64,000 bases of DNA from NCBI GenBank assembly GCA_003021005.1, contig PXRI01000013.1, forward strand, positions 62,001-126,000, given 5' to 3'. Shown in pieces: positions 17,493-21,588 of the stretch. Under the pieces are notes generated by a model. It was not told where the DNA came from, searched no databases, and saw only the letters and a list, made by a program, of their open reading frames with translations. Position 1 is the first letter of the stretch. Each line of letters begins with the position of its first letter. Position numbers and translations under genes: made by a program. Source of the DNA: Halobacteriales archaeon QS_1_69_70. GTDB taxonomy: Archaea; Halobacteriota; Halobacteria; Halobacteriales; Haloarculaceae.

Positions 17493-18121
17493 GTGTGGCT
17501 CTCGTCGACGCGGGCGGTCTCGGCGGCGCCGCGGGCCAGGGCGGCCTGGCCGGTGCGGGCGATCTCGCGGATGCCGAACTGTCCGTAGGCGTCGATGGCG
17601 TCGTCGATCTTGCCCTCATCGCCGGTGATCCGGACGGTGATGGTCTCGGGGCCGGCGTCCAGCGTCTCGCCGTCGTACATCTCGGTGATCGCGTGGACCT
17701 CGTCCGGCGCCTCGCCGTTCACCTTCAGTATCACCAGTTCGCGGGCGACGGGGTCGGCGTCCAGTTCGCGGACGTGGACAACCGGCAGCAGCTTCCCGAG
17801 CTGCTTTTTCGCCTGGTCGATGCCGGGGTCGGGCTCCTCGACGACGAGCGTGATCCGGGAGTATCCCTCGTTCTGGGTGGGTCCGACGGTCAGCGACTCG
17901 ATGTTGAACTGCCGTCGGTGGAAGAGTCCGGAGACCCCCGCGAGCACGCCGGGTTCGTCCCGCACGTACGCGGAGATGATGGTCCGACGGGGGTCGTGTT
18001 CGACCTCCACGTCGGGGTCGACGCGGATGCCGTCGGCGTTCCGGCGGCCGACCGGCCGGTCGCGCTCGCCGGGCTCGGGGCCCGCCAGCCCGTCCCGGCG
18101 GCGGTCGAGGTTGCGGCTCAC
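17489..18121 (-). CDS. ilvN: Acetolactate synthase small subunit
   Basis: ACT domain: [38 protein letters not shown] start overlaps ilvB stop (GTGA). Confidence 0.92.
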
Positions 18122-20049
18122 AGCTGCTCCTCCGCCAGGGCGAACAGGCCGTTGTCGCCGCCGCTCGGCACCATCGGGTAGACGTTCTCGTCGGGGTCGA
18201 TGTGGGCGTCGACGACGCTCGGGCCGTCGTAGGAAAGCGCCTCGTCGAGAACCGCCTCGACCTCCTCGTAGCGCTCGATCCGGAACCCGCGGGCGCCGAA
18301 CGCCTCCGCCAGCGTGTCGAAGTCCGGCACCCAGGGATACTCCGAGGCCATGTGGCGTTCGCCGAAGAAGGCGTCCTGCCACTGGCGGACCATCCCGATG
18401 GCCGCGTTGTTCAGCACGACGACGGTGACGTCTACGTTCTCGCGGACGGCGACGGACAGCTCCTGGCACGTCATCAGGAAGGAGCCGTCGCCGTCGAAGC
18501 AGACGACGTCCTGGTCGTCCTCGGCGGCCAATCTGGCGCCGATGGCCGCCGGGACGCCGTAGCCCATCGTGCCGAGACCGTGGGAGGACACCCACGTGCG
18601 GGGCTCGGTGTAGGTCCAGTACTGGCAGGCCCACATCTGGTGCTGGCCGACCCCGGTCGTGACGATAGTGTCGTCGGCGGTCGCGTCGTCGACCGCCTCC
18701 ACGACGTACTGGGGCTTGACCGGCTCGTCGGCCGGCGCGGCGTACTCCAGGGGGTACTCCTGTTTCCACTGCCGGCACTGCTCGCGCCAGGCCGCCGCGT
18801 CCGGCGATGTCGCCATCGCCGCGGCGAGCTGGTCGAGGACCGCGCCGGCGTCGCCGACCAGCGGGTGGTCGGCCTCGACGTTCTTCGAGATCTCCGCCGG
18901 GTCGATGTCGACGTGGACGATCGCGGCGTCCGGCGCGAACGTCTCCACCCCGCCCGTCAGCCGGTCGTCGAACCGCGTGCCGACCGCGAGCAGGCAGTCC
19001 GTCATCGTGACCGCCATGTTGGCGTAGCCGGTGCCGTGCATGCCGGCCATCTCCAGGGCGAGGTCGTGGTCCTCCCGGAAGGCGCCGACGGCGGGCATCG
19101 TGGTGACGACGGGGATGCCGTGCTCGGTGGCGAACGCCCGCAACGTGGCGGTCGCGTCGGCCTTGACCACGCCCCCGCCGGCGAGGATGACCGGCCGGTC
19201 GGCGGCCGCCAGCACGGCCGCGGCGGCCGCGACGGCGTCGGGGGCTGCCGTCTCCGGCGGGTCGTGCGTCGAGGGCGTCCGGGGCTCGCCGGGGTCCTCG
19301 CTGGCGTCGCCGTTCGTGACGTCCTTCGGGAGGTCGACGAGCGTCGGGCCCTGCCGGCCGCCCGCCGCCAGCGCGAACGCGGTCCCGACGTCGGTCCCGA
19401 CGTCGTCGGCGTCGTCGGCGAAGAAGTTCGCCTTGGTGACCGGGCCGGTGACGCCGATGGTGTCGGTCTCCTGGAAGGCGTCGCTCCCGACGAAGTCGGT
19501 CGGCACCTGGCCGGTCAGCGCCACGACGGGGTCCGAATCCATGTTGGCGTCGGCGAGCCCCGTCACGAGGTTCGTCGCACCGGGGCCCGAAGTCGCCATG
19601 CAGACGCCCGGCGCGCCGCTGACGACGCCGTAGGCGTCCGCGGCGTGGGCCGCGCCCTGTTCGTGAGCCATCGTGACGTGGGCCATCTCGCTGTGGTACA
19701 GCGCGTCATAGACGGGCATGATGGCGCCGCCCTGGACGCCGAAGAGGTGCTCGACGCCGGCGTTCTCCAGGGCGCAGACCACCGCGTCGGCACCGGTCTC
19801 GATCTCACCGGTGCCATCGTCGGCCGGCTCGGTCGCGTCCGTCTCGTCGGCCGCCGGGGCGGCAGTCTCCGCCGTGTGGGCCGCCGCCGTGGCAGACTCG
19901 GCCGTCTCGGTCTCTCCGGTGTCGGCGTCCGGCGGAGCGACCTCTGTCGTGTCCGAGTCCGTCGTGTCTGTCGTTGCGGTGTCGGCGTCCGACGGAGCGG
20001 CCTCCGCCGGGTCGGTCCCGGGCGAGGCCGGTTTGGGTTCGCCGCTCAT
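18118..20049 (-). CDS. ilvB: Acetolactate synthase large subunit with acidic low-complexity N-terminal extension
   Basis: GVEHLFGVQGGAIMPVYDAL, GPGATNLVTGLADANMDS, FDGDGSFLMTCQEL; about 80-aa Asp/Thr/Ala-rich N-terminus. Confidence 0.95.
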   Translation of the reverse strand: MSGEPKPASPGTDPAEAAPSDADTATTDTTDSDTTEVAPPDADTGETETAESATAAAHTAETAAPAADETDATEPADDGTGEIETGADAVVCALENAGVEHLFGVQGGAIMPVYDALYHSEMAHVTMAHEQGAAHAADAYGVVSGAPGVCMATSGPGATNLVTGLADANMDSDPVVALTGQVPTDFVGSDAFQETDTIGVTGPVTKANFFADDADDVGTDVGTAFALAAGGRQGPTLVDLPKDVTNGDASEDPGEPRTPSTHDPPETAAPDAVAAAAAVLAAADRPVILAGGGVVKADATATLRAFATEHGIPVVTTMPAVGAFREDHDLALEMAGMHGTGYANMAVTMTDCLLAVGTRFDDRLTGGVETFAPDAAIVHVDIDPAEISKNVEADHPLVGDAGAVLDQLAAAMATSPDAAAWREQCRQWKQEYPLEYAAPADEPVKPQYVVEAVDDATADDTIVTTGVGQHQMWACQYWTYTEPRTWVSSHGLGTMGYGVPAAIGARLAAEDDQDVVCFDGDGSFLMTCQELSVAVRENVDVTVVVLNNAAIGMVRQWQDAFFGERHMASEYPWVPDFDTLAEAFGARGFRIERYEEVEAVLDEALSYDGPSVVDAHIDPDENVYPMVPSGGDNGLFALAEEQL

Positions 20050-20099
20050 CGCGGCACACCGGTCCTGCGATACCGTCGATTCGTGTCTCGTGTGTCCAT
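20046..20099 (-). CDS. Possible short upstream ORF (MDTRDTNRRYRRTGVPR) whose TGA overlaps the ilvB ATG
   Basis: ATG at 20099 in frame to TGA 20048-20046; ATGA overlap with ilvB start at 20049. Confidence 0.3.
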   Translation of the reverse strand: MDTRDTNRRYRRTGVPR

Positions 20100-20154
20100 G
20101 ATCCTGTTGGTGGAACTGTCCGAAAGCGATGCAGCCGGCGGCGAGAATGGGGGT

Positions 20155-20176
20155 GTAGGGGCTAGGCGGCCCCTAC
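20155..20176 (-). promoter_or_regulatory. Perfect 8-bp-stem, 6-nt-loop hairpin in the ilvB leader
   Basis: GTAGGGGC-CGCCTA-GCCCCTAC on the minus strand. Confidence 0.75.
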
Positions 20177-20239
20177 AATACGGAGCGGGACGCTGGCGGC
20201 GGGCTCGAACGCGCGGTCGCCAGCGGTCCTCCGCGGCAT
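20162..20239 (-). CDS. Candidate ilvB leader peptide MPRRTAGDRAFEPAASVPLRIVGAA
   Basis: ATG at 20239 about 30 nt from a TTTAT TATA-like element (20267-20273); Val-Pro-Leu-Arg-Ile-Val near the stop; stop TAG lies in a hairpin. Confidence 0.45.
   Translation of the reverse strand: MPRRTAGDRAFEPAASVPLRIVGAA
20191..20225 (-). promoter_or_regulatory. Second inverted repeat in the ilvB leader (8-bp arms)
   Basis: CGCTGGCG (20225-20218) and CGCCAGCG (20198-20191) on the minus strand. Confidence 0.65.
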
Positions 20240-20358
20240 CACGTCGAGTGTAGTGGGGTACTCCCTGATAAACGTTCCCCGCGGTGCAAGCATTGCCCGC
20301 GCGATGGCGGTGGCGGTGAGCTCCTGGCGGCGGGCGAGCGCGGTCGACGCCGTCCATC

Positions 20359-21588
20359 CTACACCCGGACCTCCTCGCGGCGGACGCCCACCTCACGGGC
20401 GAACTCCGCCAGCCGCTCTCCGGTGACCTGCTCGTCGCCAGCGCCGTGGTCTTTCACCCGGCGGGTCACCTCCCGGACCTCGGTGTCGGTCGGGTCGAAG
20501 CCGGCCTCGACCAGTCGGCGTCGGACGGAGTGGGTGCCGGTGTGCTTGCCGAGCACCAGTTCGCGGCTGGCGCCGACCATCTCCGGCGTCATCACGCCGG
20601 GCTCGAACGTGTCGGCGTTCTCGATGACGCCGGCGGCGTGGATGCCCGACTCGTGGGCGAAGGCGTTGTCGCCCACGACGGGTTTGTTCGCCGGCACCGT
20701 GACGTCGCTTTTGGCCTCGACGATGCGGGCCAATTCCGTAATGTGCCCGGTATCGATGCCGGTGTCGACGCCGTACAGCGACTCCAGCGCCATCACGACC
20801 TCCTCGTAGGCGGCGTTGCCGGCGCGTTCGCCGATGCCGTTGACCGAGACCTGCGACTGACCGGCGCCGGCCTCGTAGCCCGACAGCGCGTTGGCAGCGG
20901 CCAGCCCGAAGTCGTCGTGGGTGTGGACGTCCACGTCGGCCTCGGTGTGGGCCACGACGGTCTCGACCACGTCGTGGAACCGTCGCGGCGTCGCCACCCC
21001 GCAGGTGTCGGGGACGTTGATCCAGTCCGCCCCGGCGGCGGAGACGGCCTCGACGACGTCGATCAGGTACGGTTCGTCCGTACGCGTGGCGTCCATCGGC
21101 GAGAACATGCAGGTCGCACCCGCCTCGCGGACGCGCTCGACGGCCGCGACGGACCGCTCTACGGCCTCCTCGCGGCTGGCATGCATCGAATCCTGCAGCT
21201 GGACGTCGCTGGTCGAACAGAATACGTGCACCATCTCGACGCCTGCGTCGAGGGCGGCGTCGATGTCCTCGTCCACGACGCGGGCCAGCCCGCAGACCGT
21301 GGTCGCCGTCGCGTCGGCGATGTCCCTAACGGCCTCGAACTCCGCATCCAAGTTCACCGGGAACCCGGCCTCGATGACATGGGTGCCCATGTTGTCGAGC
21401 AAGGCGGCTATCTCGCGCTTGTCGTCGTACGAGAAGGAGGTCCTGGGTGACTGTTCGCCGTCGCGCAGCGTCGTGTCGAATATCCGGGCGTCGTCGATCT
21501 CCGAACTACCGGCTAACGTGCCCTGGAAGAACTCGATCCGCCGGCGCAGCCGACGTATCCTCGTGGTGAACCATTGCAGACTGCCCAA
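20359..21588 (-). CDS. leuA: 2-isopropylmalate synthase family (LeuA/citramalate synthase family); N-terminal start uncertain
   Basis: RIFDTTLRDGEQSPRTSFSYDDKREIAALLDNMGTHVIEAGFP, HTHDDFGLAAANAL, VNGIGERAGNAAYEEV, GKHTGTHSVRRRL. Confidence 0.9.
   Translation of the reverse strand: MGSLQWFTTRIRRLRRRIEFFQGTLAGSSEIDDARIFDTTLRDGEQSPRTSFSYDDKREIAALLDNMGTHVIEAGFPVNLDAEFEAVRDIADATATTVCGLARVVDEDIDAALDAGVEMVHVFCSTSDVQLQDSMHASREEAVERSVAAVERVREAGATCMFSPMDATRTDEPYLIDVVEAVSAAGADWINVPDTCGVATPRRFHDVVETVVAHTEADVDVHTHDDFGLAAANALSGYEAGAGQSQVSVNGIGERAGNAAYEEVVMALESLYGVDTGIDTGHITELARIVEAKSDVTVPANKPVVGDNAFAHESGIHAAGVIENADTFEPGVMTPEMVGASRELVLGKHTGTHSVRRRLVEAGFDPTDTEVREVTRRVKDHGAGDEQVTGERLAEFAREVGVRREEVRV
21506..21574 (-). 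CDS. Candidate leader ORF MVHHEDTSAAPADRVLPGHVSR, out of frame with leuA
   Basis: ATG at 21574, about 30 nt from the centre of a strong TATA box (TTTAAATA, 21608-21601); stop TAG 21508-21506. Confidence 0.35.
   Translation of the reverse strand: MVHHEDTSAAPADRVLPGHVSR

Follow-up and report, generated by a model that had tools for sequence, protein, structure and literature searches.

The leader locus upstream of ilvB

Does the short open reading frame (ORF) that lies ahead of ilvB in this haloarchaeon, with Ile and Val codons at the base of a hairpin, let the ribosome adjust the operon to the supply of amino acids? An earlier note on this DNA had read the region as an attenuator-like leader peptide. 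The present analysis supports that interpretation, attenuation of transcription remaining an inference. The window, i.e. the whole stretch of 64,000 nucleotides that was analyzed, contains the following features:

20267..20280, minus strand: BRE/TATA promoter GGGGAACGTTTATC of the leader transcript (sequence; near-fixed TATA-to-ATG distance in 63 loci)
20162..20239, minus strand: leader ORF of 25 codons, MPRRTAGDRAFEPAASVPLRIVGAA-stop (in-frame ATG, (I)IVG(A/V)(x)-stop end, frame open class-wide)
20191..20225, minus strand: inner inverted repeat H1, CGCTGGCG/CGCCAGCG, within the ORF (window MFE fold; weak support across loci)
20174..20179, minus strand: proposed control codons ATT-GTA (Ile-Val) at the base of the hairpin (ATT excess in leaders)
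20155..20176, minus strand: hairpin GTAGGGGC-CGCCTA-GCCCCTAC enclosing the stop TAG (invariant GGGGC/GCCCC core, 55 sequences; z)
20100..20154, minus strand: C-rich, unstructured, untranslated spacer with a CGYAYCG-NTTTC motif (43% C; motif counts vs shuffles)
20046..20099, minus strand: second short ORF, MDTRDTNRRYRRTGVPR-stop, its TGA overlapping the ilvB ATG as ATGA (46 of 61 loci)
18118..20049, minus strand: ilvB, acetolactate synthase large subunit, first gene of ilvBNC-leuCDB (Pfam PF02775, PF00205, PF02776)

Coordinates were rechecked on the sequence, and the TATA box, the ATG, the 25-codon frame and the TAG all stand where the earlier note had placed them. The TATA-like CGTTTATC (20274-20267) has a BRE-like GGGGAA just 5' of it, and the ATG (20239-20237) begins ~28 nt past the TATA box. 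The peptide ends VPLRIVGAA-stop, with the V-P-L-R-I-V run just before the stop as described; its Ile ATT is at 20179-20177 and its Val GTA at 20176-20174. These two codons had been thought uncommon and are so in five window genes: ATT makes up 2/61 Ile codons (ATC 56, ATA 3) and GTA 5/232 Val codons (GTC 177, GTG 48, GTT 2). The stop TAG (20164-20162) lies 113 nt before ilvB and at the loop/3' stem boundary of the hairpin, as claimed; the 3' arm begins with the G of TAG, and the arms (20176-20169 and 20162-20155) form a perfect 8 bp stem. The operon, which had been named ilvBNC-leuCDB, is borne out by the domains of ilvB, ilvN, ilvC, leuC, leuD and leuB, and leuA lies directly upstream. An Rfam scan of the window gave zero curated covariance-model matches at gathering score (T-box, riboswitch or other families).

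Conservation across haloarchaea

Within the family, 15 of 22 genera gave matches in a DNA search, weak ones being counted. When all GTDB representative genomes were scanned with a pattern, 35 loci came up, of which 31 are haloarchaeal and have an IVGA leader. The four others are bacterial (L036, L057, L059 and L063, with loops of 3 or 7 nt); they are not upstream of ilvB, do not keep the frame, and were discarded as chance. Among the named carriers are Halomarina, Halovenus, Natronomonas, Halorientalis, Halocatena, Haloarchaeobius, Natribaculum, Halostella and Halomicrococcus.

With a covariance model based on 55 sequences, the element was found in 364 of 400 haloarchaeal genomes, representing 80 of 86 genera (E<=0.05). 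A stricter cut-off (E<=0.001), applied to a sample of the whole phylum, gave matches in 40 of 55 Halobacteriales and in none of the ~243 sampled genomes from other orders. The element lies just upstream of ilvB in 41 of 43 genus representatives, i.e. in all those whose retrieved stretch reached the gene. Some of the genomes that the model missed have an altered form of the element. Weak model matches such as L211 and L213 (E ~0.005) were set aside as background. The conserved short ORF for which the earlier note had proposed to look in relatives is therefore found class-wide, and together with the ATG frame counts and the hairpin z (below) this establishes that the ilvB leader element is not due to chance. 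Judged from the genome sequences, the ilvB leader mini-gene is present in almost all salt-loving archaea.

Reading frame, codons and promoter spacing

In 66 of 66 loci the ORF ends in (I/M)VG(A/V)(x)-stop; the stop codons are 61 TAG, 4 TAA and 1 TGA. Between GGGGC and TAG the loop has 1 or 4 nt, varying by 3-nt steps so that the frame is kept. ATGs located 60-125 nt upstream of the stop are distributed 91:6:7 over the three frames, and 63 of the 66 loci have one in frame; the start is not ATG, or is unclear, in a few genomes (L062, L129, L143). Leader length varies from 16 to 40 codons while frame and hairpin persist. The TATA-to-ATG distance is near-fixed (63 loci) whereas the ATG-to-stop distance ranges from 22 to 40 codons; thus the start goes with the promoter, and the frame is tied to the stop. 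From this promoter spacing, and without transcription data, we infer that the leader transcript is leaderless, starting at or beside the ATG.

Between start and core, 21% of the residues are Ile, Leu or Val; the other frames give 10% and 6%. In each of the last six positions ahead of the core they reach 37-57%, which bears out the enrichment of their codons near the 3' end of the ORF that had also been proposed as a check on relatives. ATT accounts for 87 of the 114 Ile codons in leaders. As far as sequence alone can tell, the element is the signature of a translated ORF, more than a palindrome, translation itself being untested. In one genome (G292, locus L212) a separate leader precedes a second ilvB-like gene; it ends VARVAIIGAAQ-stop, with Ile and no Val at the core position.

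The stop-codon hairpin

For 63 loci, folding from the Ile codon through 20 nt beyond the stop gives a median MFE of -14.7 kcal/mol and a median z of -3.6 relative to dinucleotide shuffles. A ribosome stalled on the control codons would be able to reach the stem, which starts at the Val codon. Folded as a whole, the leader in the window shows no unusual stability (z -0.55), so that the local hairpin alone stands out. The second 8-bp inverted repeat that the earlier note had seen inside the ORF (arms 20225-20218 and 20198-20191) is present and belongs to the window MFE fold, but across loci its median z is -1.6, with 35% of loci below -2, and this inner hairpin is weakly supported.

Covariation in the stem had been put forward as a further check. 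The hairpin is conserved across haloarchaea, but covariation in the 8-bp stem is almost nil; the core is almost invariant, hence uninformative. Two other observations support the hairpin. The stem survives shifts of register (GGGGCG/CGCCCC around TAAC or TGAC loops, GTAGGGG/CCCCTAC, GTAGGG/CCCTAC), and in L171-L174, L177 and L178 it outlasts the departure of the stop, which has moved just 3' of it (RIVGAPTPRI-stop, IVGALSPLI-stop). Since the 3' arm past the stop is non-coding in most loci, its conservation must be structural or protein-binding rather than coding. With an invariant core and almost no covariation, the block could still be a protein-binding or pause element.

The hairpin is not followed by a U-tract (the longest T run within 100 nt is <=5), and no antiterminator partner was found for either arm, alternative pairings being rarer than in shuffles. 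The element would therefore be a one-hairpin variant, and an occlusion scheme with one hairpin would not need mutually exclusive structures. Archaeal termination without a U-tract, factor-dependent or by hairpin, is not excluded (PMC7237163, PMC11616081).

Spacer and ilvB start

The spacer to ilvB contains 43% C and 18% G and is unstructured (median z 0.2). The motif CGYAYCG is present in the spacer at 40 of 66 loci (shuffles: 2.5), mostly exactly 31 nt past the stop; the window copy of CGYAYCG-NTTTC is TGCATCGCTTTC (about 20133-20122, minus strand). This motif is often followed by GACCAGC, and a related CGTWTCGACGGATGTATTG block follows the valS hairpin leaders described below. Speculatively, CGYAYCG could be a site where the polymerase pauses at a distance suited to a coupled ribosome.

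The second short ORF, which reads M.TRDTNRRYR... in the window (20099-20046, minus strand), runs into the ilvB start as ATGA in 46 of 61 loci; the other frames have 2 and 1 such cases. It likely couples ilvB translation, the arrangement suggesting termination-reinitiation. An SD-like GGAG precedes ilvB in about half of the loci.

Leaders before valS, pheS and other genes

Weaker second matches of the covariance model fall before valS, the gene of valyl-tRNA synthetase. There the leaders end AVFVGAP-stop, GVFVGAS-stop or AVRVGAP-stop, with a hairpin as at ilvB; the Val is kept and the Ile lost. In other groups valS is preceded by a leaderless upstream ORF (uORF) of 9-11 codons that ends (A/S)VVR(V/G..)-stop with GTA-GTA codons; these VVR leaders have no such conserved hairpin. 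The genome of the window has a valS leader of the VVR design, MSATSSVVRGL-stop. No valS leader of either design was seen in family f4.

In 10 of 16 loci, pheS (phenylalanyl-tRNA synthetase alpha) is preceded by a leaderless uORF, 25-29 codons long, with a Phe-rich end, typically GFGFFFAR-stop, also GFGFFFAA-stop and FGVRFFFAS-stop. That of the window genome is MAPEPATEGVSADRAVTRGFGFFAA-stop. Several pheS leaders are then followed by a GC-rich inverted repeat. The loci are:

L206-L210, L234, L306, L309-L312, L315, L319, L320, L231/L305 (window genome): valS leaders with Val codons, two designs
L277, L278, L279, L282, L283, L285, L286, L288, L289, L291 (window genome): pheS leaders

With the filters used, no cognate leader ORF was recognized before ileS, leuS, trpS/tyrS, thrS, serS, proS, glyS, hisS or trpC. 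Upstream of trpC (L352-L366) there are strongly conserved TGTACA-type inverted repeats over the promoter and no Trp-codon leader; these repeats are likely the operator for a Trp-responsive regulator.

Cognate-codon leaders before valS and pheS are what a sensor of tRNA charging predicts. That codon identity matches the gene product in the three cases (ilvB, valS and pheS) is the strongest argument for charged tRNA as the sensed signal.

Proposed mechanism and rival explanations

Promoter spacing, frame, control codons, hairpin and stop position are conserved, and the codons are swapped for the cognate ones at valS and pheS. We consider it probable that the element is a cis-acting, amino-acid-sensing leader peptide, at which the ribosome senses charged tRNA-Ile/Val and decides hairpin formation; regulation itself is unproven. 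The mode of control would most likely be transcription attenuation, which is again an inference, as are transcription, translation, stalling and termination of the ilvB leader, none of which has been shown. Transcription would start at or beside the leader ATG, as the promoter spacing implies, and a ribosome would initiate on the leaderless mRNA and read the run of Leu/Ile/Val codons ending in ATT-GTA. If charged tRNA-Ile or tRNA-Val were scarce, the ribosome would stall at ATT-GTA and cover the 5' arm GUAGGGGC; the hairpin would be blocked and RNA polymerase would proceed into ilvB. With plentiful amino acids the ribosome would go on for 3-4 codons to the stop, which lies within the hairpin or directly past it, and be released. 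The hairpin could then close behind the polymerase, over the C-rich untranslated stretch, and transcription would stop early, owing to the hairpin itself or to FttA/aCPSF1. Several points stand against this scheme: the lack of a U-tract and of an antiterminator, the near-absence of stem covariation, the valS VVR leaders without such a hairpin, and the few genomes whose start is not ATG or is unclear. In addition, a ribosome at the stop codon would itself cover the hairpin, whose closing hinges on the timing of release. Termination is still plausible: in a H. volcanii reporter a hairpin lacking a T-run ended 59% of transcripts (S12; PMC7237163), and archaeal FttA has been proposed to police transcription-translation coupling (PMC11616081). 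In H. volcanii RNA polymerase, initiation factors and ribosomal proteins co-purify (PMC8576121).

The main rival, which we hold to be unlikely without dismissing it, is control of translation or of mRNA stability: the leader would be translated, and stalling or termination on it would alter ilvB translation, via the second ORF, or mRNA decay, and not transcription termination. The ATGA overlap, the SD-like GGAG and the lack of both U-tract and antiterminator fit such control. But the hairpin is 65-290 nt from the ilvB start and the spacer between them is largely unstructured, so the start is not masked. A very uniform C-terminus, IVG(A/V)(x), placed at the stop codon could also point to a regulatory nascent peptide that arrests the ribosome and senses free Ile/Val or another metabolite, not tRNA starvation. 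This seems improbable: the residues past Gly vary (IVGV-stop, IVGA-stop, IVGAx-stop, IVGAPTPRI-stop), the GGGGC codons are pinned by the stem, and the valS leader keeps only V while the pheS peptide is unrelated and carries Phe codons, which indicates that codon identity matters.

The conserved block might alternatively be a DNA operator, the 22-bp palindrome GTAGGGGC-N6-GCCCCTAC being bound by a dimeric repressor and the ORF being incidental. The dyad is perfect, its core almost invariant, it lies close downstream of the promoter, and control of this kind is likely at trpC in these genomes. We rejected this reading, to which we give very little credence: half-site spacing is not constant but differs by 3 bp between loci, always keeping the reading frame, the stems shift register, and the one-sided conservation of ATT, ATG and stop and the stop-codon swaps would be left unexplained. 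As for a chance ORF or a functionless coding remnant, nothing speaks for it beyond the small size of the ORF, and conservation, ATG frame bias and Ile/Leu/Val enrichment contradict it to the point that it can be practically ruled out. An amino-acid-sensing leader peptide remains the preferred reading.

Comparison with known systems

Ribosome-mediated attenuation governs ilv, leu, trp and his operons in bacteria, e.g. ilvGMEDA and trp in E. coli. The haloarchaeal ilvB leader resembles these attenuators by a short leader ORF rich in codons for the amino acids produced, by a stem-loop placed for a stalled ribosome to decide its folding, and by the biosynthetic operon downstream. It differs from them by leaderless initiation, a single hairpin usually enclosing the stop codon, the absence of antiterminator pairing and of a U-run, and the absence of any sequence relation. 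Attenuation of the bacterial type, which the earlier note had invoked, is thus upheld for the leader ORF, the cognate codons and the hairpin but not for the alternative antiterminator pairing and the U-tract. Without these two the element cannot be called a copy of the ilv/trp attenuator of bacteria. It would act in the manner of a leader-peptide attenuator but is not filed under the bacterial type, as two classical defining features proved to be absent.

E. coli pheST has a leader peptide with a Phe run before phenylalanyl-tRNA synthetase. The haloarchaeal pheS leader shares the Phe run; its sequence, however, is unrelated, its uORF is leaderless and it has no bacterial terminator.

Leader-peptide control of ilvB has been reported in bacteria (PMC10272879, PMC11857589). 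For the Corynebacterium ilvB-II motif, or ilvBNC uORF, attenuation was proposed and tested with reporters (PMC10272879). This uORF is likewise rich in branched-chain residues and precedes ilvB (PMC10272879), but it is bacterial, of other sequence and of multi-hairpin layout (three-hairpin model, PMC11857589). For Haloferax volcanii, a dRNA-seq study of long 5'-UTRs independently mapped uORFs of 26 aa before pheS and 23 aa before a tryptophan-tRNA ligase gene (PMC4983044, Table 2); it proposed no attenuation, and ilvB and valS are absent from its Table 2.

We lean, with some reserve, to the wider proposal that haloarchaea own a form of leader-peptide attenuation (ilvB, valS, pheS) that uses leaderless uORFs and, at ilvB, a single stop-codon hairpin with no need of an antiterminator or a U-tract, and that relies on transcription-translation coupling and on archaeal factor-dependent termination. 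If true, this would be the first ribosome-mediated attenuation in Archaea; our literature searches, limited to open-licence papers, found no earlier report of archaeal attenuation or leader-peptide control, and an unseen report is possible. The strategy would then have arisen in a domain that has another RNA polymerase, other terminators and leaderless mRNAs. How tightly archaea couple translation to transcription is a matter on which, according to a H. volcanii study, nearly nothing is known (PMC8576121). The class-wide cognate-codon leaders of ilvB, valS and pheS are short, genetically tractable test cases, e.g. in Haloferax, and make archaeal attenuation directly testable.

An oddity at the start of leuA

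A separate observation concerns the start of leuA (window 21510-21576, minus strand), where a leaderless ATG opens an ORF of 21-27 codons, MVHHEDTSAAPADRVLPGHVSR-stop in the window. The start was compared in many loci (69 distinct sequences). In all of the many haloarchaeal loci read this ATG is out of frame with LeuA (RRIEFFQGTL...), most have no usable start nearby in the LeuA frame, and GRTCGAGTTCTTCCAGGGCAC hardly varies. Translation of LeuA would need a +1 shift near the almost invariant site CGAGTTCTT, unless it begins at a non-standard start. Slippage was raised for H. volcanii leuA2 in a 2021 annotation review, which also speculated on a link to leucine (PMC8305020). The sequences compared here suggest a class-wide programmed +1 frameshift at leuA, possibly leucine-linked.
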